A DNA stretch of 64,000 nt, from positions 1,550,001-1,614,000 of the forward strand of contig NZ_LT629791.1 of NCBI RefSeq assembly GCF_900105925.1, given 5' to 3'. The first letter of the stretch is position 1; every line of letters begins with the position of its first letter. Positions 4,200 to 59,782 of the stretch are shown piece after piece. The notes below the pieces were generated by a model. It searched no databases and was not told the DNA's origin. It saw only the letters and a program-made list of their open reading frames with translations. Source of the stretch: Jiangella alkaliphila. GTDB taxonomy: Bacteria > Actinomycetota > Actinomycetes > Jiangellales > Jiangellaceae. Position numbers and translations under genes: made by a program.

Positions 4200-4739
4200 G
4201 CGAATAATAGTGCCATATGTCCCGAGTCGACATACTTATGGACGCGTTCGCTACCAGGGCATCGCCACAGAGTAAAGCGCCAATACGCGAACTTAACCCC
4301 GCATTAATGTGACCCGTCAACAAGCTGGATGTCGAGTCGACGTCATATACATGTAACCCAAGTCACCCCGTCAGGGTTGTTGACGCCACACCCGGGGGCA
4401 GGGTTAACTCAAATCCGACAAACAACCGATTTTGCGAAGTTGTCAGTCGATGAGTGACGACAGTCGCAACTGTGGGGGGTCGTTGTGTTTGCCCAGCTCA
4501 ACCTGTAGCCGCGCGTTGCCGGCCGTGCGCTGACGCACGGGACCGGCGAGGATCCTCGAGCGATTCCGGCGGCAAGTCGGCCTGGAGCGTGGGCACCGTT
4601 CCAGTCCGGACGCCTTTTTTTCACCCCGCGACGCCGAATGCGGACTCCCCGGCGTGCATTCGATGAGTGACGTCGTGTTGCCACAAAAACCTATTTGTGT
4701 CGGCCACGGCGTGCCCCGCTGAGAAGGAAGTGCTGCGCG
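4200..4739. other. 540-base AT-richer leader between IS remnant and acyl operon
   Basis: No convincing gene. The stretch is visibly lower in GC than its surroundings, especially 4200-4470, and contains several possible regulatory sequences. These are an inverted repeat at 4216-4234, a second GAGTCGAC core near 4334-4341, and a 12-base direct repeat CGATGAGTGACG at 4448-4459 and 4661-4672. There is a run of seven T at 4615-4621. The promoter of the acyl operon must lie here, as the first gene (4740) has a GAGAAGGAAG ribosome site at 4721-4730. Part of the left half may be the flank of the decayed insertion sequence. Confidence 0.5.
4216..4234. promoter_or_regulatory. Inverted repeat TATGTC-N7-GACATA, possible operator
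   Basis: Perfect 6-base arms around a 7-base centre (CCGAGTC). It lies 17 bases upstream of the transposase start and about 500 bases before the acyl operon. Which gene it serves, if any, cannot be told from sequence. Confidence 0.3.
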
Positions 4740-6454
4740 ATGACCGAGACGGTGAAGGAAACTGCGTCGGACGGCAGGGTGTGGAGCCGCTGTCCGAGTT
4801 GCTCGACCTACCTGTACGCGAAGCGGTTGGACCGCAACAGCAAAGTCTGTCCAGAATGTGGGCATCACCTGCGGCTGACCCTCGACGAACGGCTCGCCCA
4901 GTTGCTCGACCCCGGCTCCCTGGCGCCGTTCGCGCCGGTGTTCGTCGATGCCGACCCGCTCGGGTTCGTCGACTCGCGGCCCTATCCGCAGCGGCTCGAG
5001 GCGGCCCGGCGCAAGACCGGCCGGCCCGAGGCCGTCGTCGCCGGGACGGCCCGCATCGGTGGTGAGCAGCTGGTGGTCGCCGCGCTCGACTTCGCCTTCA
5101 TGGGCGGCAGCATCGGCACCGCCGTGGGCGACGTGCTCGTCGTAGCGGCCGAGGAGGCCCTGCGGCGGCGGCTCCCGCTGCTGATCATCTCCGCCTCGGG
5201 CGGCGCCCGGATGCAGGAGGGCTGCCTGTCGCTGATGCAGCTGGCCCGCACCGCTCAGGAGATTGCCAAGCTGCGCGAGGCGGGCGTCCTCGTGATCAAC
5301 CTCAACACCGACGCGACGTTCGGCGGCGCGACGGCCTCGTTCTCGTCGCTCGGCGACATCATCATGGCCGAGCCGGGCAGCCTCATCGGCTTCGCTGGGC
5401 CGCAGGTGATCAGGCAGACCGTGCGCGAGGAGCTGCCGGCCGGTTTCCAGACCGCGGAGTTCCTGTTCGAGCACGGCATGGTCGACATCGTGGTGCCGCG
5501 GCAGAACCTCCGCGAGACCACGGCCCGGCTGTTGCGCGCGCATCGCCCGGCGTCCTCGCTGCACAGCGTCGGCGGTGGCCACGCGGGCGCCGCACCGGAG
5601 CGGACGGCGCACCCGGAGCCCGAGCGTGGCGCGGTGGACCCGTGGGAGGTGGTCACGCTGGCCCGCAACGTCGGCCGTCCGACCACCCTCGACTACATCG
5701 CCCAGATCTGCGACGACTTCGTCGAGCTGCACGGCGACCGCACGCACGCCGACGATGCCGCGATCGTGGGCGGGATCGCCCAGTTCCAGGGCCGCGCCGT
5801 GGTGGTCGTCGGGCACCAGAAGGGCCACGACACCGCCGAGATGGTGCGCCGTAACTTCGGCATGCCGCACCCGGAGGGCTACCGGAAGGCGATGCGGCTG
5901 ATGCAGCACGCCGACCGGTTCGGGCTGCCGCTGCTCACCCTGGTCGACACCGCGGGCGCCTATCCCGGCCTGCAGGCGGAGGCCCGCGGGCAGGGCGGCG
6001 CGATCGCCGAGTGCATCGCCGCGATGTCGCGGCTGCGGGTGCCGGTGGTCAGCGTGGTGACGGGCGAGGGCGGCAGCGGCGGTGCGCTGGCTCTCGCGGT
6101 GGGCAACGTGGTGCTGATGCTCGAGAACAGCTACTACTCGGTGATCTCGCCCGAGGGTTGCTCGACGATCCTGTGGGGCACCGCGGCCAAGGCGTCGACG
6201 GCGGCGGCCGCGCTCCGGCTCACCGCACCGGACCTGCTGGACCTGGGCATCGTCGACGGCGTCGTCGACGAACCGGCCGGTGGCGCACACACCGACCCGT
6301 CGGCGACGGCCGACAACCTCGCCCGTGCCCTCGGCGCGGCGCTCGCCCAGCTGTCGCGGCTGAGCCCGGACGAGCTGGTCGCGGATCGCTACAGCCGGTT
6401 CCGCGCGTTCGGTCAGCTCGACGACGCGATCGGCGCCGGCCGGAGGGGCGCGGC

Positions 6455-6458
<4 letters not shown>
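4740..6458 (+). CDS. accDA: Acetyl-CoA carboxylase carboxyltransferase, fused beta-alpha subunits (AccDA)
   Basis: Transfers CO2 from carboxybiotin to acetyl-CoA to make malonyl-CoA. The 572-residue protein is a head-to-tail fusion. Residues 1 to about 285 are an AccD-type beta subunit with a four-Cys zinc finger (C18, C21, C37, C40) and the crotonase-fold stretch SASGGARMQEG. From about residue 300 it is AccA-type alpha (DPWEVVTLARN, ELHGDRTHADD, VDTAGAYPG, GEGGSGGALAL). Most actinomycete primary metabolism uses a different PCC/ACC-type carboxyltransferase, so this bacterial-type fusion looks like a dedicated supply enzyme, as in several polyketide clusters. It is first in the operon and overlaps accB by ATGA. 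The start is set by the GAAGGAAG ribosome site. Confidence 0.93.
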
Positions 6459-6946
<488 letters not shown>

Positions 6947-6967
6947 GCGACGGGACGGTGAGATGAC

Positions 6968-8326
6968 GTGTTCGAGAAGCTGCTGATCGCCAACCGTGGT
7001 GAGATCGCTCTGCGCGTGATCCGGGCCTGTCGTGAGCTCGGCGTCCGGACCGTCGCCGTGCACTCCGCGGCCGACAGCGACAGCCTGCCGGTCCGGCTGG
7101 CGGACGAGGCCGTGCTCGTCGGCCCGCCGCAGGCCGGCGCCAGCTACCTCAACATCCCGAACATCATCGGGGCGGCTCTGAAGACCGGAGCCGACGCGAT
7201 CCACCCCGGCTACGGATTCCTCTCCGAGGATCCGTACTTCGCGGAGATCTGCGCCGACCACGGCATCACGTTCGTCGGACCGCCGCCGGAGGTCATGGAG
7301 TCGATGGGCGACAAGGCCGTGGCCCGCCGGCTGATGACCGAGGCCGGCCTGCCGCTGCTGCCGGGCACCCTCGACCCGGTACACACCTTCGACCAGGCCC
7401 GCGAGATCGCCGACGAGATCGGATACCCGCTGGTCATCAAGGCCGCCGCCGGCGGAGGTGGCCGCGGCATCACCGTCGTGGACCGGGCCGACGACCTCCG
7501 GCGGGCCTACCAGACCACCCGGGCGACCGCCCTCGCCGTCTTCCGCAACCGCGATGTGTACATCGAGCGGTACCTGCGCCGGGCCCGGCACGTCGAGATC
7601 CAGGTGCTGTGCGACGAGCACGGCGGGGCGGTGCACCTGGGGGAGCGGGACTGCTCGGTGCAGCGCCGGCACCAGAAGCTCGTGGAGGAGGCGCCGTCGC
7701 CGGCCGTGAGCCCGCAGCTGCGGGCCGAGCTCGGTGCGGCGGCACTGGCCGGCGCCCGCTCGATCGGCTATCGCGGCGCGGGCACGATGGAGTTCCTGCT
7801 CGACGACGACGGCCGGTTCTGGTTCATGGAGATGAACGCCCGGATCCAGGTCGAGCACCCGGTGACGGAGATGCTCAGCGGCATCGACCTGATCGCCGAG
7901 CAGATCGCGGTCGCCTCGGGCCGTCCGTTGTCGGTCAAGCAGGAGGACGTCCGGCTCGACGGGCACGCGATCGAGTGCCGGATCAACGCCGAGAACCCGG
8001 CTCAGGACTTCGCGCCGACGCCGGGCCGGCTCGAGGTCTTCCAGCCCGCCGCCGGTCCGTGGACCCGTGTGGACACCCACTGCCGGCCCGGCGACCTCGT
8101 CCCGCCGTACTACGACTCGCTGCTGGCCAAGCTCGTCGTGTGGGGCCCCACGCGCGACGCGGCGATCGACCGGCTCGATCGGGCCCTCGCCGAGTTCGAG
8201 GTCGCCGGCCCGGGCGTCCACACCACGATCGGCTTCCACCGCTGGGTGGTGAGCCACCCGGTGTTCCGCGCCGGCGAGGTCCACACCGACTTCCTGTCCC
8301 GCCACGATCCGGAGGAGATCTCATGA
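6968..8326 (+). CDS. accC: Biotin carboxylase AccC
   Basis: ATP-dependent carboxylation of biotin on the carrier protein. The 452 residues match stand-alone AccC: the N-terminal domain starts FEKLLIANRGEIALRVIRAC, an ATP-grasp domain has the glycine-rich loop KAAAGGGGRGI, then MNARIQVEHPVTE with catalytic and metal residues, and the C-terminal domain begins GHAIECRINAENP. It has no fused BCCP domain, unlike the AccA3-type proteins usual in actinomycetes. The start is GTG at 6968; the stop overlaps fabD by ATGA. Confidence 0.96.
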   Translation: MFEKLLIANRGEIALRVIRACRELGVRTVAVHSAADSDSLPVRLADEAVLVGPPQAGASYLNIPNIIGAALKTGADAIHPGYGFLSEDPYFAEICADHGITFVGPPPEVMESMGDKAVARRLMTEAGLPLLPGTLDPVHTFDQAREIADEIGYPLVIKAAAGGGGRGITVVDRADDLRRAYQTTRATALAVFRNRDVYIERYLRRARHVEIQVLCDEHGGAVHLGERDCSVQRRHQKLVEEAPSPAVSPQLRAELGAAALAGARSIGYRGAGTMEFLLDDDGRFWFMEMNARIQVEHPVTEMLSGIDLIAEQIAVASGRPLSVKQEDVRLDGHAIECRINAENPAQDFAPTPGRLEVFQPAAGPWTRVDTHCRPGDLVPPYYDSLLAKLVVWGPTRDAAIDRLDRALAEFEVAGPGVHTTIGFHRWVVSHPVFRAGEVHTDFLSRHDPEEIS

Positions 8327-9321
8327 CCAGTGCGCGACCGGCCGACGGCCCGGGCGGAGACCGTCGCACCGCGTTCGTGTTTCCCGGACAGGGCTCGCAG
8401 CGCGTCGGGATGGGACGGGACCTGCTCGAGCGGTACCCGGCGATCGTCGAACCGATCTTCCGCACCGCGGACGAGGCGCTCGGCTTCGAGCTGTCAGACC
8501 TGTGCTGGAACGGGCCCGAGGAGCGGCTGCGCAGCACCGAGATCACCCAGCCGGCCATTTTCGTCACGAGCCTGGCGGCGTTCCAGGTGCTGACGGCCGA
8601 GGTGCCGCGGCCCGACGTCGTGGCCGGTCACAGCCTCGGCGAGTACACCGCGCTGGTCGCGGCCGGAGTCCTGGACTGGCTCGACGCACTGGCGCTGGTC
8701 CGCCGGCGCGGCCTGCTGATGGCCGGCGTGCAGGCGACGACACCTGGCGCGATGGCGGCCGTGATCGGGCCGGCGGCGGAGCAGGTCGAGGACCTGTGCG
8801 CGGCCGCCCGCGACGCCAGTGGCGAGGTCGTCGAGGTGGCCAACTTCAACGACGACACCCAGACGGTGGTGTCGGGCACGGTCGCCGGCGTCGAGGCGTT
8901 CGGCGAGCGCCTGCGCGCCGAGCGGATCCCCGGCGCGAAGGTCGTCAGGCTCGACGTCGGAGCGCCGTTCCACTGCTCGCTGATGTCGGCGGTGGAGGAC
9001 GAGTTCGCCGCCGACCTGGCCGAGGTCGAGTTCGCCGACCCGGCGGTCACGGTGGTGGCGAACACCACCGCGCTCCCGGTGACGACCGGCGAGGAGGCGC
9101 GGGCCGCGTTGCGGGCGCAGCTGGCCGGCTCGGTGCGCTGGCGGCAGAGCCTGACGACGATCGTCGGTCTCGGCGTCGAGACCTTCGTCGAGGTCGGCCC
9201 CGGCCGCGTCCTGTCCGGCCTGGGCCGCAGGAGCTACCCGGACCTGCCCAGCTACTCGACGGCGGACGCCCGCCGCACCGACCAGGCGATCGCGGCCCTG
9301 CTGCCGGTGACCACCGGATGA
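8323..9321 (+). CDS. fabD: Malonyl-CoA:ACP transacylase (FabD-like)
   Basis: Loads malonyl groups from CoA onto the ACP encoded downstream. The 332-residue protein has the N-terminal motif FVFPGQGSQRVGMG, the nucleophile elbow GHSLGEY with Ser104, and the catalytic histidine in GAPFHCSLM (His217). Length and motifs are normal for the family. The ATG overlaps the accC stop. Its place between the carboxylase genes and the condensing enzymes makes the operon independent of the host FabD. Confidence 0.95.
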   Translation: MTSARPADGPGGDRRTAFVFPGQGSQRVGMGRDLLERYPAIVEPIFRTADEALGFELSDLCWNGPEERLRSTEITQPAIFVTSLAAFQVLTAEVPRPDVVAGHSLGEYTALVAAGVLDWLDALALVRRRGLLMAGVQATTPGAMAAVIGPAAEQVEDLCAAARDASGEVVEVANFNDDTQTVVSGTVAGVEAFGERLRAERIPGAKVVRLDVGAPFHCSLMSAVEDEFAADLAEVEFADPAVTVVANTTALPVTTGEEARAALRAQLAGSVRWRQSLTTIVGLGVETFVEVGPGRVLSGLGRRSYPDLPSYSTADARRTDQAIAALLPVTTG

Positions 9322-9344: not shown

Positions 9345-10421
9345 ATGCCCAAGGCGCAGATCGTCGGGACCGGCGGCTACCAGCCGGGCGAGCCGATCGA
9401 CAACGCGATGATCGAGTCGATCGTCGGCCCGCTGCCGGAGGACGTCCTCGCCGGGGTGTCGATCCAGCAGCGGTACTGGATGATCGACCCGGCCACCGGC
9501 GAGCACCTCGACAGCAACTCCGGGATGGCGGTGAAGGCGGCCCGCTCGGCACTGGAGAGCGCCGGGCTGGAGGCCGCGCAGGTCGAGCTGATCATCGTCG
9601 CGACCGGGACCCCCGACTACCCGCTGCCGCCGGTGGCCAACCTCGTGCAGGAGGCGCTCGGCCTGGAGGAGTGCGCCACGATGGAGCTCCGGTCGGCGGG
9701 CTCGGGGCCGGTCCAGGCGCTCGACATCGCCAGGACGTGGATCGAACAGGGCCGCATCACGACCGCCCTGGTCATCGGCTCCGAGGCGATCTCGCCCGCG
9801 CTGGCTCCGGTGTTCCTCAAGACCGAGCCCGCGAAGATCCGGATGCGCGACCGCGTTCCGCTCTACATGTTCGGCGACGGCGCGGGCGCGATCGTCGTCC
9901 GGGCGGGCGAGGGCGAGGGCCTGCGGCAGGGGACGACGCGGGCGATCGGCGGCTCGCGCAAGGCCGGGATCCACGCGATCGGCGGCGGGACGCACGCGCC
10001 GATCCTCACCCAGCAGCGCTCCAAGCGCATGGTCGACCTGCGCGTCGACGTGGTCGGTGCCGGCGACTTCACCCCGGTCATGGTGACGAAGGCGCTGGCC
10101 GACAGCCTGGCCGCCGCGGACCTGGCCGCCGAGGACGCCGACTGGTGCCTCATCCCCGAGGGCAACGTCGGCTGGATGCTCGACTCGCTGAACGAGGCCG
10201 GGCTGCTGACGCCCGAGTGGCTGGCGCTGCAGGGCCGCATCTTCGACGACCTCGCCCAGACCGGCGCGTGCGGATGCGCGGCCGTGCCGCTCTTTCTCGA
10301 CCACGCGTGGCGGACCGGCATGGTCAAGCCCGGCCAGAAGGTGCTGCTCATCGGCGTCGAGGCGACCAAGTGGATCTACGCCGGCATCGCCTGCGACTGG
10401 ACCGCGGAAGCGCCGGCATGA
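9345..10421 (+). CDS. KAS III-like thiolase-fold protein lacking the catalytic triad
   Basis: The 358 residues have the ketoacyl-ACP synthase III fold: an N-terminal GTGGYQPGEPIDN, the MFGDGAGAIVV strand-turn, and GGTHAPILTQ. All three catalytic positions appear changed. Where Cys is expected the sequence is LRSAGSGPVQ (Gly119); where His is expected it is LIPEGNVGW (Glu272); where Asn is expected it is LAQTGACG (Gln305). It therefore should not do a normal priming condensation. It could bind an acyl group, act as a partner or chain-length subunit, or catalyse another thioester reaction. The ATG at 9345 follows AAGGGAG at 9334-9340. The stop overlaps the next gene (ATGA), so it is a working member of the operon and not a stray remnant. 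Alignment was by eye. Confidence 0.85.
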   Translation: MPKAQIVGTGGYQPGEPIDNAMIESIVGPLPEDVLAGVSIQQRYWMIDPATGEHLDSNSGMAVKAARSALESAGLEAAQVELIIVATGTPDYPLPPVANLVQEALGLEECATMELRSAGSGPVQALDIARTWIEQGRITTALVIGSEAISPALAPVFLKTEPAKIRMRDRVPLYMFGDGAGAIVVRAGEGEGLRQGTTRAIGGSRKAGIHAIGGGTHAPILTQQRSKRMVDLRVDVVGAGDFTPVMVTKALADSLAAADLAAEDADWCLIPEGNVGWMLDSLNEAGLLTPEWLALQGRIFDDLAQTGACGCAAVPLFLDHAWRTGMVKPGQKVLLIGVEATKWIYAGIACDWTAEAPA

Positions 10422-11944
10422 CCGGCTACGACGTCGTCGTCATCGGCAGCGGTCTGGGCGGCCTGTCCGCCGCCGCGCTGCTGGCCCGAGCCGGCCTGCA
10501 CGTCGCGGTCGTCGAGCGCAACGAGCACCCGGGCGGCTACGCCCAGGTGTTCCGCCGCGGTGAGTACGTGTTCGACCCGGCCATCCACTTCACGCTGGAC
10601 GCCGGGCCCGGCGGCTTCACGCCGAAGCTGCTCGAGCACGTCGGCGTGGCCGACCGGGTGCGGTTCGTGGCGTCGGAGCACACCTACCGCTCGTTCTTCC
10701 CGGACCTGACCTTCGACGCCATGCCCGGCCGCGACGCGTTCCTGCGCTCGCACCAGGAGCTGTTCCCCGCCGACTCCGATGGACTGGCCCGGCTGTTCGA
10801 GATGCGGCAGGCGATCTTCGCCCAGCTCGCGGCGCTGCCGCAGAAGGTCGGCCCGGACGGCCTGGAGGCGGCGATGGCCACCGCGCCGCTGGTCTTCCGG
10901 CACCGGATGTCCTCTGTCGAGGACGTGCTGAAGGAGTACCTGCGCGACTCGCGGACGGCGGCGGCAGTCGCCAGCATCTGGCCGTACGTCGGCTCGCCGC
11001 CGTCGCGGATGTCCTTCCTGCTGTTCAACCAGATGCTCGAGACGATGCACGCCGGCTGCTACTACCCGCTCGGCAGCTTCCAGACGGTGGTCGACGCGCT
11101 GGCGGCTGCCGTCGTCGAGAACGGCGGCGACGTGCTGCTCGGCGCCGCGGCGACGAAGATCGTCCTGCGCGAGGGCCGGGCCGCGGGCGTCGAGGTGGCG
11201 GGCGGCACAGTCCTGCCGGCCCGCGCCGTGGTGTCGAACGCCGACCCGCAGCACACCTTCGGCGAGCTGGTCGGATGGGACGCGACCGGTCCGAGCCTGC
11301 GCCGGCGGATCGGCCGCTACAAGCTGTCGCCGTCGGCCGTCGTGCTCTACGGCGTGCTCAACGCCGACCCGGACGCCCTCGGCCTGGTGCATGAGAGCTT
11401 CGTCTTCCCCAGCTGGGACCACGAGCGGACGTGGAGCGAGCTGCAGGCCGGCCGGCCGGGCGGCATCTGGGTGAGTGTGCCGACGCTGCTGGACCCGTCG
11501 CTGGCGCCGCCCGGCGTGCACCTGTGCGTGGTCACCGGCCTGGTGCCGGCGCGCGCCGACGGGTCGTGGCGAGCGGTGCGCGACGATGTCGCGGACCGGA
11601 TGTTGCGCGACGTCGACGCGCTGATCCCGGGGCTGCGCGACGCCTTCGAGATCGTCGAGGTCGCCACCCCGGACACCCTGCACCGCTACACGAACAGCAG
11701 CGGTGGCGCCACGTACGGCTGGGAGAACATCCCGGCCCAGACGGCGAGCAAGCGGCTGGCGCACCGGACCCCGGTCGACGGCCTGTTCCTGTCCGGGCAG
11801 TGGGCCGAGGAGGGGACGTCGTCGCTGCGGGTTCTGACGTCGGGCCGGGCCACCGCGGCCATGGTGGCCGCCGACCTCGGGAGCCCCGGCACCGTCCCCG
11901 ACCTGGGCGGCCCGTCCTTCTTGAACCTACCCGCGAGGGGATGA
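10418..11944 (+). CDS. FAD-dependent phytoene desaturase / carotenoid isomerase-like oxidoreductase
   Basis: A 508-residue flavoprotein with the N-terminal dinucleotide motif VIGSGLGGLSAAALLARAG followed by the CrtI/CrtISO-type PGGYAQVFRRGEYVFDPAIH. A mid-protein segment CYYPLGSFQTVVDAL resembles the P-G-G substrate region of the family. The end has GLFLSGQWAEEGTSSLRVLTSGR, the usual FAD-binding C-terminus. Known relatives desaturate, saturate or isomerise conjugated polyenes. No carotenoid precursor genes (crtE, crtB) are nearby. Being embedded in a type II acyl operon, its substrate is more likely an ACP-bound or released polyene chain; whether it oxidises, reduces or isomerises cannot be told. 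Confidence 0.85.
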   Translation: MTGYDVVVIGSGLGGLSAAALLARAGLHVAVVERNEHPGGYAQVFRRGEYVFDPAIHFTLDAGPGGFTPKLLEHVGVADRVRFVASEHTYRSFFPDLTFDAMPGRDAFLRSHQELFPADSDGLARLFEMRQAIFAQLAALPQKVGPDGLEAAMATAPLVFRHRMSSVEDVLKEYLRDSRTAAAVASIWPYVGSPPSRMSFLLFNQMLETMHAGCYYPLGSFQTVVDALAAAVVENGGDVLLGAAATKIVLREGRAAGVEVAGGTVLPARAVVSNADPQHTFGELVGWDATGPSLRRRIGRYKLSPSAVVLYGVLNADPDALGLVHESFVFPSWDHERTWSELQAGRPGGIWVSVPTLLDPSLAPPGVHLCVVTGLVPARADGSWRAVRDDVADRMLRDVDALIPGLRDAFEIVEVATPDTLHRYTNSSGGATYGWENIPAQTASKRLAHRTPVDGLFLSGQWAEEGTSSLRVLTSGRATAAMVAADLGSPGTVPDLGGPSFLNLPARG

Positions 11945-11947: not shown

Positions 11948-12715
11948 ATGAAGCTCTCGAACAAGGTGGCGCTGGTGACCGGCGGCTCGCGGGGCATCGG
12001 CCGCGCCGTCTGCCTCCTGCTGGCCGCACAGGGCGCGTACGTCGCGGTCAACTACCGGTCGAGCCGGCCGCAGGCGGAAGAGGTCGTGGCCGAGATCGAG
12101 GCCGCGGGCGGCAAGGCCATCGCGGTCGCCGGTGACGTCGCCAGCCCGGCCGACGCCGTCGCCATGGTCGAACGGACCATCGCCGAGCTCGGCGGCCTGC
12201 ACATCCTGGTGAACAACGCCGGTGTCGCCAAGGACGTGCTGATCTTCAACATGGAGCCCGACGACTGGCGCTCGGTCATGGAGACCAACTTCGGCGGGGT
12301 CTTCAACTGCACCAAGGCGGCGCTGTCGCACTTCATGTCGCAGCGCGAGGGCGTCGTGGTCAACGTCTCGTCGGTGATGGGCGAGCGCGGATGGGTCGGC
12401 CAGTCCAACTACGCCGCGTCGAAGGGCGCCATCAACGCCTTCACCCGCACCGCCGCGGTCGAGCTGGCCCGCTTCGGCATCCGGGTCAACTCCGTACTGC
12501 CCGGCTTCGCCCCAACCGACCTCGTCGCCGGCCTGGTCGAGAAGGGCGGCAAGGGCATCAAGAAGCAGCTGCCGATGCGCGACTTCGCCCGGATCGAGGA
12601 CGTGGCGTCGACCATCGCGTTCCTCGCCGGGCCCGACTCCAGCTACATGACCGGCTCCGCCCTCACCGTCGACGGCGGAGGCAGCGCCCAGCTCGGCATC
12701 GGGCGGCCCGACTGA
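11948..12715 (+). CDS. 3-oxoacyl-ACP reductase (FabG-type SDR)
   Basis: NADPH-dependent reduction of the beta-keto group after each condensation. The 255 residues show the TGGSRGIG cofactor loop, NNAG, a catalytic serine in NVSSVMG, YAASK with Tyr155 and Lys159, and the GFAPTDL segment after the active site. The end, YMTGSALTVDGG, is the standard SDR C-terminus. It is the only ketoreductase in the operon and starts three bases after the oxidoreductase stop with a GAGGGG ribosome site. Confidence 0.93.
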   Translation: MKLSNKVALVTGGSRGIGRAVCLLLAAQGAYVAVNYRSSRPQAEEVVAEIEAAGGKAIAVAGDVASPADAVAMVERTIAELGGLHILVNNAGVAKDVLIFNMEPDDWRSVMETNFGGVFNCTKAALSHFMSQREGVVVNVSSVMGERGWVGQSNYAASKGAINAFTRTAAVELARFGIRVNSVLPGFAPTDLVAGLVEKGGKGIKKQLPMRDFARIEDVASTIAFLAGPDSSYMTGSALTVDGGGSAQLGIGRPD

Positions 12716-12770: not shown

Positions 12771-13175
12771 GTGACGAACGAAGAGATCTTCCTGGCGGTC
12801 CGCCCGGCGGTCGCCGAGGCCCTCGGTCTCGACGAGGACGAGGTGACGCCCGACGCCACGCTGCTGGACGAGCTGGGCGCGGAGTCGATCGACCTGCTCG
12901 ACATCCTGTTCCGGCTGGAGCGGTCCACCGGCGTGAAGATCCAGGCCGCGGACCTCTCCCACCACGTCCAGGGCGGCATCCCGGACGAGGAGTTCGGCGA
13001 CGAGGCGAACGACGTCATCACGCCGGTCGGCATGGAGCAACTGAAGAAGGTCATGCCGCAGATCGCCGGCATGGACCTCGACGGCAAGCTGCAGCCGGAG
13101 AAGGTCATGAGCTACTTCACCGTGCAGAACCTGACCGACCTGGTGGCGGCCCGTGCCGCGGCAGTCTCCGCCTGA
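12771..13175 (+). CDS. Acyl carrier protein, elongated form
   Basis: Carries the growing chain on phosphopantetheine. The attachment motif is LGAESIDLLDI with Ser39. At 134 residues it is about 50 longer than an ordinary ACP. The extra part lies after helix II (residues about 60-112, including SHHVQGGIPDEEF and VITPVGMEQL), and a typical last helix (VQNLTDLVAARAA) closes the protein. It starts with GTG after a well-placed GAAGGAG in an unusually C/A-rich, unstructured 55-base leader, the longest gap but one in the operon. That suits high translation of a carrier needed in excess. The start of acpS lies inside its 3' end. Confidence 0.92.
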   Translation: MTNEEIFLAVRPAVAEALGLDEDEVTPDATLLDELGAESIDLLDILFRLERSTGVKIQAADLSHHVQGGIPDEEFGDEANDVITPVGMEQLKKVMPQIAGMDLDGKLQPEKVMSYFTVQNLTDLVAARAAAVSA

Positions 13176-13611
13176 GTTCGCCGGCCGGCCCGCGGCGCAC
13201 TGCCGGGTCCGCGTCGGTGTCGACCTGGTCGACGTCGAGCGGCTGGAACGGCTGCTCGGCGCGAACCCGGGCGCGGCGGACGAGCTGTTCACCGTCGCCG
13301 AACAGGCCTACTGCGAGGGCAAGCGGCGACGCGTCGAGCACCTCGCGGCCCGGTTCGCCGCCAAGGAGGCGGTGCTGAAGGCGTTCGGCACCGGGCTCGG
13401 GCAGCGGATGCGGTGGACCGACGTCGAGATCGTGAACACCCCGCTCGGCCGGCCGACCGTGCGGCTCGACGGCGCGGTCGCCGCCCGGGCGCGCGAGCGC
13501 GGCGTCAGCGAGGTCGAGGTCTCGCTGACCCACACCGCCGGCCTGGCCATGGCGCAGGCCGTGGTCGTGAGCCGGACCGAGAGAAGGGACCAGGCGTGCG
13601 TTTCCACCTGA
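13153..13611 (+). CDS. acpS: Holo-ACP synthase (AcpS-type phosphopantetheinyl transferase)
   Basis: Transfers phosphopantetheine from CoA to ACP serine. The 152 residues contain GVDLVDVERLERLLG near the N-terminus (metal-binding Asp) and RFAAKEAVLKAFGTGL, both signature AcpS motifs, and the closing SLTHTAGLAMA. A GTG at 13153 gives a 23-base overlap with the ACP gene. A dedicated copy directly behind the long ACP suggests this carrier is not a good substrate of the housekeeping enzyme. The last 15 residues overlap the next gene. Confidence 0.94.
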   Translation: MPRQSPPEFAGRPAAHCRVRVGVDLVDVERLERLLGANPGAADELFTVAEQAYCEGKRRRVEHLAARFAAKEAVLKAFGTGLGQRMRWTDVEIVNTPLGRPTVRLDGAVAARARERGVSEVEVSLTHTAGLAMAQAVVVSRTERRDQACVST

Positions 13612-14036
13612 TCGACCGCATCGACGAGTACGAGCCGCGCCGCAGCGTGCGCGGGCGCAAGGTCGTCTCCGGGGACGAGCCGGCCCTGGAGGACCACGGG
13701 GACGGCCCGGTGCTGGCGCCGCCGCTGTTGCTGGAGGCCATCTGCCAGGCCGGCACCTGGCTGATCATGCTCTCGACGGAGCGGCGGAAGCGGGCCGCGC
13801 TGTTGCAGATCGGCGACGTGCGCTTCGTCGGCGACGCGCGTCCCGGCGACGTCGTGGTCGTCGAGGGCATCGTCGAGGCGATGAACGACGAGACGGCGGT
13901 GCTGTCCGGAACCGCCAGCGTCGACGGCAAGCCCGTGGTCGACGCCGCCGACATCATGTGCGCGCTGATCGACGCCGACGATCTCGAGGCACCCGAGGAC
14001 AGCGAGCGCCTGCTGCGCCAGCTGACCCGCGCATGA
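13596..14036 (+). CDS. FabZ/FabA-like hotdog dehydratase, subunit 1 (retains catalytic Glu)
   Basis: A 146-residue hotdog protein whose central helix region reads PVLAPPLLLEAICQAG, aligning with the FabZ block that carries the catalytic acid (Glu47 here). A histidine (His34, in EDHGDGP) sits close to the FabZ catalytic position, but the loop is one residue shorter and lacks the usual HFPG. The GTG at 13596 overlaps acpS by 16 bases; the stop overlaps the next KS by ATGA. With the second hotdog gene at 15298, which has the HFP loop but no Glu, it probably forms a two-subunit 3-hydroxyacyl-ACP dehydratase, as known for aryl-polyene ApeI/ApeP. Confidence 0.85.
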   Translation: MRFHLIDRIDEYEPRRSVRGRKVVSGDEPALEDHGDGPVLAPPLLLEAICQAGTWLIMLSTERRKRAALLQIGDVRFVGDARPGDVVVVEGIVEAMNDETAVLSGTASVDGKPVVDAADIMCALIDADDLEAPEDSERLLRQLTRA

Positions 14037-15301
14037 GGCCGCTGGACCGCCGGGTCGTCATCACCGGCGTCGGCGCGGTGACGCCGGTCGGCAACGACGC
14101 GCCGTCCACGTGGTCGGCGCTGCGGGCCGGCCGCAGCGGGGTCGGCCCGATCACCACGTTCGACGCCTCGACGTTCCCGGTTCGCATCGCCGGCATGGTG
14201 AAGGACTTCGACCCCGAGCAGCGGATCCCCGACCCGGAGCTGCGCCGGCACCTCTCGCGCCCGGGCGCGTTCGGCGTCGCGGCGGCCGCCGAGGCGCTGA
14301 CCGACGCGGCGATCGACGACGAGACCTACCCGGCGCACCTGCGTGGGGTCAGTGTGGGCGCCACGTCCGGCCGGCCGTCGCTGGCCGAGCTGGCCGAGAT
14401 CTTCCACCGCATCAAGGGCTCCATGCCGCTCTACCGGCAGCCGCCGGAGAACGTCTGGGAACGCGACCAGAACGTGCCGGCCGCGGCGATCGCCAGGCTG
14501 GCCGGCTGCGAGGGCCCCGTCGTGGGTGTGTCGACGGCGTGCACCGCTTCTGGTCACGCCATCGGCGAGGCGTACCGGCGGATCCAGGAGGGCGACGCGG
14601 ACATGATGGTCGCCGGCGGCTACGACTCGCTCATCTCCTGGCTCGACGTGCTGGGCTTCTCGCTGCTCGGCGCGCTGACCACCGACCACGCGGACCGGCC
14701 CGAGCAGGCCTCGCGCCCGTTCAGCGCCGACCGGTCCGGCTTCGTGCTCGGCGAGGGCGCGGTCATGGTCGTGCTCGAGGACTACGAGGCGGCCCGGGCG
14801 CGCGGCGCGACCATCCACGCCGAGATCGTCGGCTATGCGGCCACGATGAACGCCTACCGGATGACCGACCCGCCACCGGACGGCGGCGGCGTCACCCTCG
14901 CCATGGTCCAGGCGCTCGACGACGCCGGTCTCGCGCCGGAGCAGGTCGGTTACATCGCCGCACACGGCACCTCGACGCCCGGCAACGACATCTGCGAGAC
15001 CCGGGCGATCAAGGACGTGTTCGGCGCGCACGCGCCGAAGGTCGCCATCAGCTCGGCGAAGTCGATGGTCGGACACCTCACCGCGGCCGCCGCCGGCGTC
15101 GGGCTGATCGGCGCCCTCGGCGTGCTGCGCGAGAAGGTCGCGCCACCCACCATCAACCTCGACCATCCGGACCCGAAGCTCGACCTCGACTACGTCCCCA
15201 ACACGTCCGCGGCGGTGGACACCGGCACGGCGATGGTCAACGCCTTCGCCTTCGGCGGCACCAACGCCTGCTTGATCGTGCAGGAGCTGACCACGTCATG
15301 A
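14033..15301 (+). CDS. Beta-ketoacyl-ACP synthase (KAS I/II type), active-site residues intact
   Basis: Condenses acyl-ACP with malonyl-ACP. The 422-residue protein begins PLDRRVVITGVGAVTPVG and carries the complete Cys-His-His triad: STACTASG (Cys170), AAHGTSTPGND (His311) and VGHLTAAAAG (His348). The FAFGGTNA loop near the end is normal. It is sandwiched between the two hotdog genes and followed by a degenerate KS (15690), so it is a natural partner for that chain-length-factor-like protein. The ATG overlaps the preceding stop. Confidence 0.94.
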   Translation: MRPLDRRVVITGVGAVTPVGNDAPSTWSALRAGRSGVGPITTFDASTFPVRIAGMVKDFDPEQRIPDPELRRHLSRPGAFGVAAAAEALTDAAIDDETYPAHLRGVSVGATSGRPSLAELAEIFHRIKGSMPLYRQPPENVWERDQNVPAAAIARLAGCEGPVVGVSTACTASGHAIGEAYRRIQEGDADMMVAGGYDSLISWLDVLGFSLLGALTTDHADRPEQASRPFSADRSGFVLGEGAVMVVLEDYEAARARGATIHAEIVGYAATMNAYRMTDPPPDGGGVTLAMVQALDDAGLAPEQVGYIAAHGTSTPGNDICETRAIKDVFGAHAPKVAISSAKSMVGHLTAAAAGVGLIGALGVLREKVAPPTINLDHPDPKLDLDYVPNTSAAVDTGTAMVNAFAFGGTNACLIVQELTTS

Positions 15302-15702
15302 CATCTGCTCTGATGACCCTGGACCGCGTGGTCGGCGTCGAACCCGGGCGCCGGGCCGAGGCGATCCGCAACGTGCCGAGCACGCTGGACCTCTTCGACA
15401 GCCACTTCCCTCGGTTCCCGGTGCTGCCCGGCGTGCTCATCCTGGGCACCCTCGGCGCGCTCGCGGAGCTGCTGTTGCGCGACACGACCCAGGCGACCTG
15501 GCGGCTGTCCGGCGCCGGTGGCGTCCGCTTCCGGCACTTCGTCCGGCCCGGCGACGTGCTCCGGCTCAGCGTCGAGCTGACCGAGCACGACGACGGCCTC
15601 GCCGTCTGCAAGGCCGAGGCCGGCGTCGACGCCACCCGCGTCACGACGGTGCGCCGGCTGCTGCTGGACCGCGTCGACGGAGGTGTGCCGTGCGCCGAGT
15701 AG
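15298..15702 (+). CDS. FabZ-like hotdog protein, subunit 2 (catalytic Glu replaced by Gly)
   Basis: 134 residues with the FabZ loop DSHFPRFPVLPGVLILG. His36 is in the catalytic position, but 14 residues on, where FabZ has its acid, there is Gly50. On its own it should be a poor dehydratase. Since hotdog active sites form across a dimer, pairing with the Glu-bearing protein at 13596 would restore a complete site. The ATG overlaps the KS stop (ATGA), and the end overlaps the next gene by 13 bases. An alternative is a non-catalytic acyl-ACP binding subunit. Confidence 0.85.
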   Translation: MTSALMTLDRVVGVEPGRRAEAIRNVPSTLDLFDSHFPRFPVLPGVLILGTLGALAELLLRDTTQATWRLSGAGGVRFRHFVRPGDVLRLSVELTEHDDGLAVCKAEAGVDATRVTTVRRLLLDRVDGGVPCAE

Positions 15703-16982
15703 CCGTCACCGGAATCGGCCTGGTCACCGCTCTGGGCACCGGGACCGACGAGACCTGGCAGGCGCTGGTGGCCGGCAAGAGCGCCGTCGACCACCTGCGC
15801 GGCTTCGACGCCGCGTCGCTGGACTCGCGGCTCGGCGCCGAGATCGCCGGCTTCGACCCGACGCCGTACGTGAAGCAGCGGCGGGCGCTGCGCAACATGA
15901 CCCGCAACGACCAGCTGGCCGTCGCCGGAGCCGCGCTCGCGGTCCGCGACGCCGGTCTCGAGCTGGGCGAGGACGGGCCGCTCGACCCGGACCGGCTCGG
16001 GCTGTTCATCGGCGGCAACAAGGAGATCTCCGAGCCGTCGAAGGTGCTCGACGCCGTCCTGCTGGCCCGCAACGACGACGGCACGGCCGACCTGCGGCGG
16101 ATGGGCACCGAGGGCGCCGCGCAGTTCTACCCGCTCTTCTACGTCGAAGGGTTGCAGGCCGCGGCCCTGTTCTACATCTCGCAGGCGCACGGGCTGCGTG
16201 GCACCAACACTTACTTCGCCGGCACCGGTGACGCCGGCGCCACCGCCGTCGGCCGGGCGTTCCGCGCTGTGCGCCGGGGCGAGGCGACGGTGGCCGTCGC
16301 CGGCGGGTTCGACGACCCGACGTCGTGGTGGAGCATGACGAAGCTGGACCCGCTGGGCGTCCTGACCGCCAGCAACGACCTGGGCGCCGGGGCCTTCCGC
16401 CCCTTCGACCGCGGTCACGACGGCGCCGTCACCGGCGAGGGCGCGGCCTTCGTCGTCCTCGAGGACCTGGACGCGGCCCGCAGCCGGGGCGCCACCGTCT
16501 ACGCCGAGGTCACCGGGTTCGGTTCCGGGTTCGACGCGGGCGCCGTCGGGATGCCGGCGCGCGACGGGCGCGGCCTCGCGCACGCCATCCGAGCCGCCCT
16601 CGACGAGGCCGGCGTCGACCCGGCCGACGTCGACTACGTGGCCGCCGACGGCGCGGCCACGGCGACCGGCGACGCGGGCGAGGCCGCGGCGCTGCGGGCG
16701 GCGCTCGGGCCGGCCGCGGGCACGATCGCGGCCAGCAGCGTGAAGCCGGCCACCGGGAACCTGGTCGCCGGGGCCGGCCCGCTCAACGTCGCCGTCGCGG
16801 CGCTCACCTGCCACCACGCCACCGTCCCGCCGACCCTGAACCTCACCGACGTCGACCCGGCCTGCGAGGGCATCGACTGGGTGCCGCGCGAAGCCCGCAA
16901 CCTGCCGGTCGGGCACGCGCTGGCGCTCAGCCGCGGGCTGGAAGGGCAGAACGTCGCGCTCGCGCTGCGGGCCGCGCCGTAG
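15690..16982 (+). CDS. Degenerate ketosynthase, chain-length-factor-like
   Basis: A 430-residue KAS-fold protein (VAVTGIGLVTALGTGTDE at the start) in which all three catalytic residues are gone. The Cys region reads YFAGTGDAGATA (Gly180 aligns with Cys), the first His region reads AADGAATATGD (Asp), and the second reads ATGNLVAGAG (Asn). Fold-defining stretches such as FRPFDRGHDGAVTGEGAAF remain. This pattern is that of chain-length factors, which pair with an active KS to set chain length; the obvious partner is the KS at 14033. GTG start, with GGAGG upstream, overlapping the hotdog gene. Confidence 0.9.
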   Translation: MRRVAVTGIGLVTALGTGTDETWQALVAGKSAVDHLRGFDAASLDSRLGAEIAGFDPTPYVKQRRALRNMTRNDQLAVAGAALAVRDAGLELGEDGPLDPDRLGLFIGGNKEISEPSKVLDAVLLARNDDGTADLRRMGTEGAAQFYPLFYVEGLQAAALFYISQAHGLRGTNTYFAGTGDAGATAVGRAFRAVRRGEATVAVAGGFDDPTSWWSMTKLDPLGVLTASNDLGAGAFRPFDRGHDGAVTGEGAAFVVLEDLDAARSRGATVYAEVTGFGSGFDAGAVGMPARDGRGLAHAIRAALDEAGVDPADVDYVAADGAATATGDAGEAAALRAALGPAAGTIAASSVKPATGNLVAGAGPLNVAVAALTCHHATVPPTLNLTDVDPACEGIDWVPREARNLPVGHALALSRGLEGQNVALALRAAP

Positions 16983-17025: not shown

Positions 17026-19365
17026 GTGACGATCGCATCGCAGCAGCAGCCGGCCCGGGTCGCCGTCGTGAGCGTCGGCGCCATCACCTCCCAGGGCCCG
17101 ACCGCCAGCGACCTGTGGCAGGGCGCGGAGAAGGGCCGGGTCGCCATCGGGCCGGTCCGCCACATGTCGATGGAGGGCTTCCGCACCGGCCTCGCCGGCG
17201 AGGTGCAGGACGAGCACCGGCCGCGCGGCCGGACCGGCTACCCGAACGGCTACCGCGACCGCGCCGTGGAGTTCGCGCTCGTCGCGGCCGAGGAGGCGAT
17301 GTCGGCCAGCGGACTCGGCACCGACGACGTCCCGTCGGACCGGTGGGGCGTCGTCGTCGGCAGCTGCAACGCCGGGCTGATCAGCGGCCGGCACTGGTAC
17401 CTCGAACGGATGCGCGGCGGCTCGGCCGATCCCGCACTGCTGATGTTCGTGCCGCCGCAGGCGATCGCCGAGGCGCTCGCGGGCAGGTACCGCATCAAGG
17501 GCCCCGCGCTGTCGGTGAACACGGCCTGCGCCGCCGGCGCCAACGCCATCGGCTACGCCGCCGAGCTGATCCGCTGGGGGGAGGCCGACGCCGTGCTCAC
17601 CGGCGGCAGCGACGCGCTGTCGGACGTCCTGGTGGCCGGCTTCAACGCGTTGGAGTCGCTGTCGCCGGAGCCCGCGGCGCCGTACTCGCGCGACCGGCTC
17701 GGGCTGTCGCTCGGCGAGGGCAGCGGCATGCTCGTCCTGGTCCGCGAGGACCTCGCTCGCAAGCTGGGGCTGCCGGTGGTCGCCGAGGTGGCCGGCTACG
17801 GCCTGTCCGCCGACGGCTACGACGCCACGGCGCCGCACCCCGGCGGCCGCGGCGCGTCGCGCGCCATCCAGGCGGCGCTGCGGTCCGCCGGCGTGGCCGC
17901 GGACGAGGTCGGCTACGTGAACAGCCACGGCACCGGCACGGCGAAGAACGACCCGGCCGAGACCAAGGCGACCAAGCTCGGGCTCGGCGAGGCGGCCCAC
18001 TCGGTCGCGGTGAGCAGCACGAAGTCGATGATCGGGCACCTGCTGGGCGCCGCCGGCGCGGTCGAGGCGATCGTGACGGTCCGGGCGCTGGAGGAGCAGA
18101 CGGCGCCGCCGACGGCGAACTTCACCGAGCCCGACCCCGAGTGCGACCTGGACTACGTGCCGAACGTGTCGCGGCCGCTCGACACCTCCGTCGCGCTCTC
18201 GAACAACTTCGCCTTCGGCGGAGCGAACGCGTCACTCGTGCTGACCAGGAACCGCGCCTCGACCGCGCCGGTGCCGCGGCCGGACCGCGTCGTGGTCACC
18301 GGGGTCGGCGCGCTCACCCCGGCCGGCACCGGCCCGGCGGCGCTCTGGGACGCCTGGGCCGCCGAGCGCGACTGCACCATGCCCGAGCGTGACACCCGGG
18401 TCGCCCGCGTCGACGTCGACGTCAGCGAGTTCCTGACCGCCAAGCAGCGCCGCCGGATGGACCGGCTGGGCATTTTCGCGGTGATCTCCTCGCGGCTCGC
18501 GCTGGAGGCCGCCGGTCTGGACATCGACGACGACAACGCCGGGTCGATCGGGACGGTGCTGGGCACCGGCATCGGCCCGATGGAGGCGATGGAGGCGTTC
18601 TCGAGGCCGCTGTTCGAGGACGGGCCGCGTGCGGCCAGCCCCGCGGTCTTCCCCAACACCGTCTACAACGCGGCCACCGGTCAGGTGTCGATGCACGTGC
18701 GGGCGCTGGGCCCGACGTCGACCGTCACCACCGGGCACGCGGCGGGCGCGGCGGCGGTCGTGTACGCAGCCGACCTGCTCAAGCGCGACCAGGCGGCGGG
18801 CATGCTCGCCATCGCCGCCGACACGCTGACCGACGCGGTCGTGGACGGCTATCGCGACCTCTCCTCCGGCGGCCCGGACGGCTTCGCGGTCGCCGAGGCG
18901 GGCATCGCCGTGCTGCTCGAACGGCGGTCGGCGGCGCTCGCTCGCGGCGCCGCACCGCTGGCGGAGGTGCTCGGGTACGGCATCGCCGGCGACGGTATCG
19001 GCGTGGGCCGCTGGAGCCCGGGTGGCCGCGGGCTGGAGCGGGCGATGCGCCTCGCGATCGACCGGGCCGGCCTCGCGCCGTCCGACGTGACAGCCGTCTG
19101 GTCGTCGATCGCGGGACTCGACCGCGCCGACGACGCCGAGCGGGCGGCACTGCGCCGGCTGTTCGGGGACGCGGCCGGTACCGAGGGCCCGGCGATCCTG
19201 GCGCCGAAGAAGCTGATCGGCGAGCCGATCGGCGCCGGCGGAGCGCTGAACCTGGCGCTCGCCGTCGAGGCGTGGTCGCGCGGGCAGTACCGCGGGCCGG
19301 TGCTCGTCAACAGCTCGTCGCTCGGCGGCACGCACGTCTCGATCGTGCTGGCCCCGGCGTCGTGA
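17026..19365 (+). CDS. Ketosynthase-chain length factor didomain protein
   Basis: A 779-residue fusion of two KAS folds. The first (residues about 10-410) is active by sequence: NTACAAG (Cys168), NSHGTGTAKND (His301), IGHLLGAAG (His338). The second (from about 424, VVVTGVGALTPAGTG) has lost the triad: TTGHAAGAAA places His571 at the Cys position, the HGT loop is replaced by WSSIAGL, and GH becomes GE (KLIGEPIGAGG). KS-CLF pairs are normally separate subunits; fusions are known in PfaC-type PUFA synthases, but there within multidomain proteins. The gene starts with GTG after GAGGAGAG and lies 43 bases behind the stand-alone CLF, so the operon encodes two KS/CLF sets. Confidence 0.92.
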   Translation: MTIASQQQPARVAVVSVGAITSQGPTASDLWQGAEKGRVAIGPVRHMSMEGFRTGLAGEVQDEHRPRGRTGYPNGYRDRAVEFALVAAEEAMSASGLGTDDVPSDRWGVVVGSCNAGLISGRHWYLERMRGGSADPALLMFVPPQAIAEALAGRYRIKGPALSVNTACAAGANAIGYAAELIRWGEADAVLTGGSDALSDVLVAGFNALESLSPEPAAPYSRDRLGLSLGEGSGMLVLVREDLARKLGLPVVAEVAGYGLSADGYDATAPHPGGRGASRAIQAALRSAGVAADEVGYVNSHGTGTAKNDPAETKATKLGLGEAAHSVAVSSTKSMIGHLLGAAGAVEAIVTVRALEEQTAPPTANFTEPDPECDLDYVPNVSRPLDTSVALSNNFAFGGANASLVLTRNRASTAPVPRPDRVVVTGVGALTPAGTGPAALWDAWAAERDCTMPERDTRVARVDVDVSEFLTAKQRRRMDRLGIFAVISSRLALEAAGLDIDDDNAGSIGTVLGTGIGPMEAMEAFSRPLFEDGPRAASPAVFPNTVYNAATGQVSMHVRALGPTSTVTTGHAAGAAAVVYAADLLKRDQAAGMLAIAADTLTDAVVDGYRDLSSGGPDGFAVAEAGIAVLLERRSAALARGAAPLAEVLGYGIAGDGIGVGRWSPGGRGLERAMRLAIDRAGLAPSDVTAVWSSIAGLDRADDAERAALRRLFGDAAGTEGPAILAPKKLIGEPIGAGGALNLALAVEAWSRGQYRGPVLVNSSSLGGTHVSIVLAPAS

Positions 19366-20129
19366 CGGGACGGGTCCGTCCGACCGAGCACCTGGTCGAC
19401 GACGCCGACCCGGCGCTGGCGTACGGGCGGCTGCCCGGCGCCGGGCCCACGGTCGTGTACCTGCACGGGCTGGGCGCGCGCTGGCAGGTCTTCGCGCCCC
19501 TGATGCTGCGGCTGCGCGACGACGTCGACCAGCTGGCGCCCGACTTCCGCGGGCACGGCGGCTCCGGCCGGGCGCCGGAGCACTACGGCGCCGGCGACTT
19601 CGCGGCCGACACCGCCCGCTTCGTCCGGGCGACGGCGTCCGGCCAGGTCGTGGTCTACGGGCACTCGCTGGGCGGCTGGGTCGGTCTCGTGCTGGCCGCG
19701 TCGTACCCGTCCTTGGTGCACTCGCTGGTCGTGGCGGACTCGGCGATCTTCCCGGAGCGGCTGGACCCGAGCCTCGTGGTCGGCTACCTGGCCGACCTGC
19801 CGATCGCGCTGCGGTCCATGGCGAAGTCGCTGGACCAGCTCGACCCCGAGGTCATGGCGTCCTTCCGGGACGGCCGGATGCTGGCCGGCTTCGACCCGCA
19901 CGAACTGCTGGCGCGGGTGCGCTGCCCTACCCTGCTCCTGCAGGGTGATCCCGAGCGCGGCGCGCTCATGGGCGACGACGACGTGTCCGACGCGTTGAAG
20001 CTGCTGCGCGGCGCCGGGCATGTCCGGCTGGACGGCCTGGGTCACGGCCTGCACGTCGAGGACGCCGAGCGGGTGGCCGCACAGGTGCGGACGTTCGTCT
20101 GCGGCGCACCCGGCCGCCGAGAGGGGTGA
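19362..20129 (+). CDS. Alpha/beta hydrolase, candidate chain-releasing thioesterase
   Basis: 255 residues of a classic alpha/beta hydrolase: oxyanion segment VVYLHGLGARW, DFRGHGGSG, nucleophile elbow GHSLGG (Ser102), an acid in LLLQGDPERG, and the catalytic histidine in GLGHGLHVED. No signal peptide. Its GTG overlaps the KS-CLF stop (GTGA) and its stop overlaps the next gene, so it is made with the pathway. Release or editing of the acyl chain from ACP is the simplest role; the substrate is not known. Confidence 0.85.
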   Translation: MTGRVRPTEHLVDDADPALAYGRLPGAGPTVVYLHGLGARWQVFAPLMLRLRDDVDQLAPDFRGHGGSGRAPEHYGAGDFAADTARFVRATASGQVVVYGHSLGGWVGLVLAASYPSLVHSLVVADSAIFPERLDPSLVVGYLADLPIALRSMAKSLDQLDPEVMASFRDGRMLAGFDPHELLARVRCPTLLLQGDPERGALMGDDDVSDALKLLRGAGHVRLDGLGHGLHVEDAERVAAQVRTFVCGAPGRREG

Positions 20130-20584
20130 GCGTGGACGTCCTGGGGTTCGTCGTGATCGTGGTGGTGGGCTTCACCGCCGCCGCGGAGTTCGGCTCGTAC
20201 GCGTTCGTGCACCCGGTGATCCGCCGGCTGCCGCCGGAGTACCACGTCCGCGTCGAGCAGGGCCTGCTCCGGACGTTCGGCATCGTCATGCCGCCGCTGA
20301 TGACGGGGAGCCTGGTGCTCGCCATCACCAACGCGGCACGCGGCGGGACCGAGGGCGGCCCGCTGTGGCTGCGGGTGGCCGCCGCGGTGGCGTGGGGCCT
20401 CGGCATCGTGTCGACCGTTCTGGTGAACGTGCCGATCAACCTGGCCACGCTGCGCTGGGACCCGGACGCGCCGCCGGAGACCTGGCAGCGCACGCGGTCG
20501 CGGTGGGAGTGGTTCCAGGGGTTCCGCTCGTGGATGTACCTGGTCAGCTTCGTGCTGGTGGTCTGGGCCGCGACGTCCGCCTGA
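20126..20584 (+). CDS. DUF1772 (anthrone oxygenase-like) membrane protein
   Basis: 152 residues with about four membrane segments (VLGFVVIVVVGFTAAAEFG, IVMPPLMTGSLVLAI, VAAAVAWGLGIVSTVLV, WMYLVSFVLVVWAA). It has the family block NVPINLATLRWDPDAPP followed by WQRTRSRWEWFQGFRSW. DUF1772 includes fungal anthrone oxygenases but many bacterial members are uncharacterised. The GTG at 20126 overlaps the hydrolase stop; another GTG follows two codons later. Last gene of the operon; it may oxidise or handle the lipophilic product at the membrane. Confidence 0.8.
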   Translation: MSVDVLGFVVIVVVGFTAAAEFGSYAFVHPVIRRLPPEYHVRVEQGLLRTFGIVMPPLMTGSLVLAITNAARGGTEGGPLWLRVAAAVAWGLGIVSTVLVNVPINLATLRWDPDAPPETWQRTRSRWEWFQGFRSWMYLVSFVLVVWAATSA

Positions 20585-58851: not shown

Positions 58852-58871
58852 GGAGCGCCGGGCGGCGCGAA

Positions 58872-58889
58872 CCGGGTGGCGCCACCCGG
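58872..58889. repeat. 18-base perfect palindrome between MDR and SDR genes
   Basis: CCGGGTGGCGCCACCCGG reads the same on both strands. It starts 20 bases after the MDR stop and ends 23 before the SDR start. Could end or attenuate the transcript, or bind a dimeric protein. Confidence 0.4.
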
Positions 58890-58912
58890 CGGGGCTGGTG
58901 TGTGCTTCTGGG

Positions 58913-59674: not shown

Positions 59675-59715
59675 CGCCGTCCGCGCACAGCCGCCAGTGG
59701 GTCAGAACCACCCCA

Positions 59716-59745: not shown

Positions 59746-59782
59746 CCTCGCAGAGCGCGAATCGTGGACACAGGGAGGTGTC

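Follow-up and report, generated by a model that had tools for sequence, protein, structure and literature searches.

The window analysed here (a whole stretch of 64,000 nucleotides from Jiangella alkaliphila, whose genome of 7.7 Mb lies on a single contig) harbors a run of genes on the + strand that probably form one operon with a single transcript. The run begins with acetyl-CoA carboxylase genes (4695..8326), comprising a carboxyltransferase (4695-6458), an open reading frame for a biotin carrier (6011-6946) and a biotin carboxylase (6968-8326). These are followed by the malonyl-CoA:ACP transacylase FabD (8365..9321; 294 bits for a cut-off of 261), a FabH-like KSIII (9345..10421) and a CrtI-like FAD oxidoreductase (10415..11944), all three with approximate starts, then by a FabG-type ketoreductase (KR, 11948..12715), an acyl carrier protein (ACP) of 134 aa (12771..13175) and a 4'-phosphopantetheinyl transferase superfamily protein with an AcpS-type domain (13153..13611). 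Next come a FabA/FabZ-like dehydratase, DH1 (13581..14036, start approximate), a FabF-like ketosynthase with an intact Cys-His-His, KS1 (14033..15301), a second FabA/FabZ-like dehydratase, DH2 (15298..15702, start approximate), and a KS-like protein, KS2 (15690..16982), which is devoid of the active-site Cys, has Asp for the first His and Asn for the second, and is probably the partner of KS1 in the manner of a chain-length factor (CLF). The gene under study (17026..19365) lies after KS2, and is followed by an alpha/beta hydrolase (19359..20129, start approximate) and an anthrone-oxygenase-like protein (Anthrone_oxy, DUF1772-type; 20126..20584). The type II setting proposed in an earlier note on this DNA is thus borne out.

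The 779-aa product of this gene is a fusion of a ketosynthase (KS) half (residues ~10-409) and a CLF half (~416-779) joined by a short linker, and Pfam recognises two ketoacyl-synthase stretches within the single + strand frame. It starts with GTG, 43 bases after the end of KS2 and preceded by an AGGAG motif ending 6 bases upstream, and its third-position GC reaches 0.97. Full-length matches of 50-82% identity in 6 of 59 other related genomes exclude a chance open reading frame. Compared with the copy of a same-genus genome (G008), dN/dS amounts to 0.21 for the KS half and 0.28 for the CLF half, values that suggest purifying selection on both, while the value of 2.4 for the linker concerns 10 residues, too few to weigh. 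KS and CLF of bacteria are usually two separate proteins; the separate monofunctional KS and CLF of type II polyketide synthases are replaced here, and in the relatives, by one open frame, and the free-standing KS-CLF didomain claimed in the earlier note is therefore real.

The KS half carries Cys168 (codon 17527..17529), His301, Lys333 and His338. The CLF half has His571 at the Cys position (codon 18736..18738) as well as Lys728, with Ser and Glu733 in place of the first and the second His. The protein thus joins a KS with Cys-His-His to a KS-like partner without Cys, as found in type II KS/CLF systems. We consider it likely that the fusion is a self-contained KS-CLF serving a reducing, polyene-type type II synthase beside the KS1/KS2 set. 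An acyl chain would be transferred onto Cys168 of the N-terminal half, with His301 and His338 assisting in the subsequent decarboxylative condensation with malonyl-ACP. The C-terminal half, having lost the Cys and both His, would pack on the KS half as a built-in CLF, complete the substrate cavity and control length, so that one chain would do the job of a KS/CLF heterodimer or a KS homodimer.

ACP, KR and DH, which are expected in aryl polyene or highly reducing systems, are all present in the gene run, and no enoyl reductase was recognised in the subset of open reading frames scanned between ~0.1 and 22.9 kb of the window (the SDR bears an adh_short_C2 label in Pfam, but is a FabG by NCBIfam score). 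The synthase would thus be reducing, and its combination of KR and DH without a recognised enoyl reductase points to polyene-type chemistry and, probably, to a polyene product, even if further reduction could be supplied from outside the frames scanned. The CrtI-like and anthrone-oxygenase-like proteins suggest additional oxidation in this strain.

How widespread is such a fusion? Counting the window's own, 7 of 60 related genomes contain a full-length fusion, namely 4 of 12 genomes of the genus (own included) and 3 of 10 in the rest of the family, while none appeared among the matches listed for 38 further genomes of the class. A scan of named genomes, with patterns derived from actinobacterial sequences, gave 45 loci among the matches listed (L028-L072), all with actinobacterial titles except Paenibacillus terricola. 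Among these matches, the gene order KS1-DH2-KS2-fusion occurs at 38 of the 45 loci, the other seven (L031, L032, L050, L060, L066, L067 and L071) including several on short contigs. Sixteen Streptomyces plasmid records contain the fusion with at least 98% of the query covered. When the phylum was surveyed with the CLF half, at least 12 of 396 genomes matched at E <= 1e-40, a number that may be an undercount since at most five candidates were scored per genome; two of the 12 have a fusion (own included), and ten have single-KS-sized frames (413-463 aa) with the Cys intact. Two-KS frames occur in at least 12 of the 296 genomes surveyed from the order to which Paenibacillus terricola belongs, and the family as a whole ranges over Actinomycetota, Bacilli and Clostridia. 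The fusion is therefore less isolated than the earlier note took it to be, belonging to a family with several cluster types.

The accessory genes vary among the named loci. CrtI-like matches on the same strand are present at only 15 of the 45 (among the matches listed), which places this gene outside the cluster core. Same-strand carboxyltransferase-like matches were found at 14 of the 45, some only 24-26% identical, and biotin carboxylase matches at 10 (both counts among the matches listed); in the window, the acetyl-CoA carboxylase genes lie directly upstream. In most relatives, KS2 lacks the Cys and keeps both catalytic His, whereas the KS2 of the window has neither, and the KS2 of most relatives differs in this respect from the CLF half of the fusion as well.

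Several clusters of other bacteria are leaner. The pBM500 cluster of Priestia megaterium contains FabD, FabG, ACP, FabZ, a GcvT-like protein and the fusion, KS1/KS2 being absent, and three further clusters (L174, L177, L178) have the same gene content. Two others (L172, L173) consist of ACP, fusion, FabG and FabZ, and a plasmid of the clostridial Lachnospira eligens (NC_012780) bears the fusion (L182, 9983-12376) in an ACP-fusion-FabG-FabZ-FabD-AccD run, with PlsX nearby. Also without KS1/KS2, the fusion accompanies ACP, FabG and KSIII at L175 and L181, ACP and FabG at L179, and ACP, FabG, KSIII and more in a Pseudalkalibacillus cluster, and it is the sole gene recognised at L180. No other FabF-type KS was annotated or detected in 38 kb of pBM500, in 22 kb of the Lachnospira eligens plasmid, or in the 19-kb stretches around L172, L173, L174, L177 and L178, and ACP, FabG and FabZ are present in each of these clusters. 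Their hosts are expected to have a housekeeping FabF elsewhere. A GcvT-like gene adjoins the fusion in Priestia megaterium, in an Acidimicrobiia metagenome-assembled genome (MAG) and in three genomes of the Paenibacillus order (L108, 16904-17986; L067, 401-1474; L174, L177 and L178).

Could the fusion instead perform a specialised transfer or a final condensation, with KS1/KS2 carrying out the elongation? The presence of KS1 and KS2 alongside the fusion at most of the named loci listed (38 of 45) would fit, and two-KS systems with complementary roles are known (PMC8358021). Against this stand the clusters where the fusion is the sole FabF-type KS detected, and we regard such a restricted role as possible but rather unlikely. 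The same clusters are the strongest hint for elongation independent of KS1/KS2: being the only FabF-type KS seen in several of them, the self-contained KS-CLF suggests that it elongates without KS1/KS2. The fusion of the window could nevertheless depend on them, with a division of labour that probably exists between the two sets, and a distinct elongation step by the fusion, as envisaged in the earlier note, would be plausible.

The origin of the two halves was addressed by four maximum-likelihood trees (96, 52, 66 and 41 rows) and ten finished AU tests, whose p values are uncorrected. The KS half groups with ApeO in all four trees, a relationship shared with aryl polyene systems, with supports of 100/97 (96-row), 100/99 (52-row) and 97/92 (66-row), all starred, and 100/98 (41-row, unstarred); only one of the 17 KS halves in the 66-row tree (L180) falls outside this group. 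The ApeO row is a protein of E. coli CFT073 that presumably bears this name, having been assigned by gene order in a way that fits the literature account (PMC8358021). The CLF halves likewise form one group (100/97, 100/97, 99/99 and 100/99, all starred, in the 96-, 52-, 66- and 41-row trees), which takes in a second fusion family of Streptomyces and an unfused myxobacterial CLF where these are included. In the 96-, 52- and 66-row trees, the KS halves (with ApeO) and the CLF halves are separate starred groups, each with actinobacterial and Bacillota members. The CLF half is sister to the aromatic CLFs with weak to moderate support in three trees (86/51, 82/54 and 93/89 in the 96-, 52- and 66-row trees), but in the 41-row tree it takes a basal position beside the PFA rows, away from the aromatic CLFs, and forcing it with them there is not rejected (p = 0.347). 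The phylogeny called for in the earlier note thus ties the KS half to ApeO and places both halves apart from PfaC, while the aromatic affinity of the CLF half is seen in three of the four trees only. Long branches deserve caution in the 66-row tree, where the CLFs of L130 and L180 join, perhaps falsely, and where AmcF, included in this tree only, is a long branch.

These trees also bear on whether the fusion arose by internal duplication of a KS, or as an old duplicate of the KS line of the operon, with a second half that would merely be a degenerate structural half. One clade of both halves gives p = 0.09 in the 96-row tree, which holds more relatives, and the CLF half can be placed with KS2 (p = 0.315 and 0.122 in the 52- and 41-row trees) or with KS1 and KS2 together (p = 0.197, 41-row) without rejection. 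However, the single clade is rejected in the 41-row tree (p = 0.006), as is the KS half with KS1 (p = 0.033 and 0.003 in the 52- and 41-row trees), and a myxobacterial MAG (L130) has abutting, unfused KS and CLF frames that branch with the two half groups, a pair which may show the form of the unfused ancestor. KS1 and KS2 each form their own clade in all four trees (starred supports of 100/99 or better), with no fusion half inside, and are sisters in three of them (93/94, 89/84 and, starred, 99/94), not in the 41-row tree. The halves are therefore not the recent duplicates of the KS of the operon that the earlier note had named as fatal to its reading, and a duplication origin appears improbable on the whole, even though the two unrejected placements (p = 0.315 and 0.122) in these sequence-based trees would agree with an old tie of the CLF half to the KS2 line.

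For the preferred reading of a KS with a built-in CLF, the conservation of the active-site residues is informative. It was scored on 43 sequence-distinct close fusions with both halves recognised, the window's own counted, a number that omits the PfaC controls (L145, L146, L148), the second fusion family (L074, L078, L086), the far relatives L067 and L108, also L069, and the single-half loci (L060, L065, L066, L068, L071). The intact Cys168-His301-His338 triad reported in the earlier note is correct, its C-H-K-H form being kept in all 43 first halves, and so are the residues given there for the loss of the triad in the second half. There, the Cys position is His in 42 of 43 (Asn in Frankia, L044), the second-His position is Glu in 41 (Val in L035, Asp in L050), and the first-His position is N, A, S, V or T, never His. 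In a diverse set of 15 fusions, half 1 is intact and half 2 is without Cys in every case, the Cys position being H, A, G, N, D, I or S. All three of the His-bearing members (the window and two of the Paenibacillus order) have the KS1/KS2 cassette, to which this His therefore seems confined, judging from these alignments.

A conserved His571 might also suggest that half 2 is an initiation domain, a KSQ-like decarboxylase in which His replaces Gln. That reading is very unlikely, as the other positions do not follow: the 43 close fusions never retain the first His and have Glu, Val or Asp for the second, and elsewhere in the family G, N, A, I, D or S takes the place of the Cys, with a single His left in only two second halves (L078 and L183). 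Nor is His at the Cys position confined to the fusion, since it is also found in a CLF-like protein next to an aromatic-type KS (L027, 4160-5494). In the second, diverged KS-CLF fusion family of Streptomyces (L074, L078 and L086, ~10.0-12.3 kb of each locus), Asp replaces the Cys in half 2. At L078, the fusion adjoins an aromatic amino acid lyase, an HpaB hydroxylase, a styrene-monooxygenase-like protein and an SDR, neighbours which suggest an aryl starter, and the lyase and HpaB are likewise present at L074 and L086.

The predicted fold agrees with a self-contained KS-CLF. An AlphaFold2 model of one chain (24 sequences) reached a pLDDT of 93.0 and a pTM of 0.95, and its top Foldseek match is the KS-CLF didomain of PfaC (6riw; TMq 0.83, TMt 0.71, rmsd 4.5, 17% identity), with an alignment of 902 columns that alone among the best 50 matches spans both halves, the other 49 covering about one half. 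The structure prediction of an intramolecular dimer, suggested beforehand, thus yields a confident fold, and the pTM together with the 6riw match would place the two halves in contact in the model. The KS half superposes on Iga11 (6KXD; Z 58.0, rmsd 1.7, 395 residues), tied with FabF; the VIA-align matches listed cover model residues 1-413, that is the KS half, and 6riw is not among them.

With PfaC, the fusion shares a KS-CLF didomain fold on a single chain, yet PfaC-type proteins are large and multidomain (frames of 2421 and 2455 aa in the gammaproteobacterial references used), and neither half of the fusion branches with the matching PfaC half. A type II relative of PfaC, bridging type II KS/CLF and PUFA synthases as the earlier note proposed, deserves hardly any credence: the best structural match across both halves, the identical domain order and the position of the CLF half next to PFA rows in the 41-row tree are outweighed by the AU rejection of the KS half (p = 1e-7) and of the CLF half (p = 0.011) with their PfaC counterparts in that tree, by the grouping of the PfaC halves with PfaA (100/99, starred, in the 96-row tree, rows that doubled as outgroup) and by the mere 17% identity. 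The bridge is thus unsupported, and convergence is the likelier source of the resemblance. What remains is a family of distinct one-chain KS-CLF enzymes in the neighbourhood of aryl polyene synthases. In an actinobacterial MAG (G065, locus L116), a PfaA-like type I synthase (C139, 30615-37352) lies ~20 kb upstream of the fusion operon, whose fusion is at 57904-60213, and no PfaC-type KS-CLF was detected after the PfaA-like gene, between 36 and 56 kb.

Other known systems resemble the fusion in part. Aromatic type II KS/CLF of the ActI-ORF1/2 kind, which are aromatic rather than reducing, also pair an active KS with a Cys-less CLF, and supply the sister group of the CLF half in three of the four trees, but they are encoded by separate genes and the Cys position is Gln, Glu, Gly, Ala, Ser or His in those of their CLFs that were compared here. 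PigJ of the prodigiosin pathway (NF053555) has two-part KS content, with a KS part and a similar length (759 model positions). The fusion, however, scores only 79.1 bits for a cut-off of 900, the best stretch (model positions 493-721) lying on the KS half; NF053555 found no match in 274 gammaproteobacterial genomes, nor in the control genomes.

Another example is ApeO-ApeC (6QSP, 7F28), to which the fusion is linked by the grouping of its KS half, and its cluster by a reducing type II logic with KR, two DH and a second KS. ApeC, as described for that system (PMC8358021), forms a protein of its own, roughly half as large and with one thiolase fold, whereas the CLF half is near full KS length and fused in frame. 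By the same account, ApeO-ApeC on their own carried the polyene to full length in vitro, and throughput rose with ApeR (PMC8358021). Iga11-Iga12 (6KXD) shares the superposition of its KS on the KS half and a KR/DH-dependent polyene logic, as described in another report (PMC10698177), but consists of separate proteins; the likeness comes from the Iga11 structure, the trees being without Iga sequences, and a Streptomyces-group KS (L157) used as PDB query for Iga returned FabF as top matches.

No description of a free-standing KS-CLF fusion was found in the open PMC papers searched, where the term KS-CLF didomain refers, judging by titles, to PUFA synthases, and the database records consulted label the fusion as beta-ketoacyl-ACP synthase family protein. 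One catalogue lists 6352 pairs of type II KS-CLF genes, sought as two open reading frames within 2 kb with overlapping matches kept, and neither fused nor fusion occurs in the part of it available (PMC10132072). The fusion points to clusters that may be overlooked or mislabelled when KS and CLF are sought as separate, adjacent genes.

Taken together, we lean, with limited confidence, towards the view that one-chain KS-CLF elongases are an old family distinct from PfaC, extending from Actinomycetota to Bacilli and Clostridia, whose leanest clusters (ACP, fusion, KR, DH) would represent a reducing type II synthase pared down to a minimum, with one condensing protein only, and to which the actinobacterial cassette would have added KS1/KS2. 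Producing a KS/CLF pair can be difficult, as its two proteins have to meet; AmcG of the cispentacin system, for instance, was insoluble in the absence of AmcF (PMC10698177). A natural one-chain KS-CLF would fix both stoichiometry and pairing, and its single gene would make the role of the CLF testable by swapping or deleting a half. If the trees are right, the KS-CLF fusion is independent of PfaC, and this architecture therefore arose at least twice.
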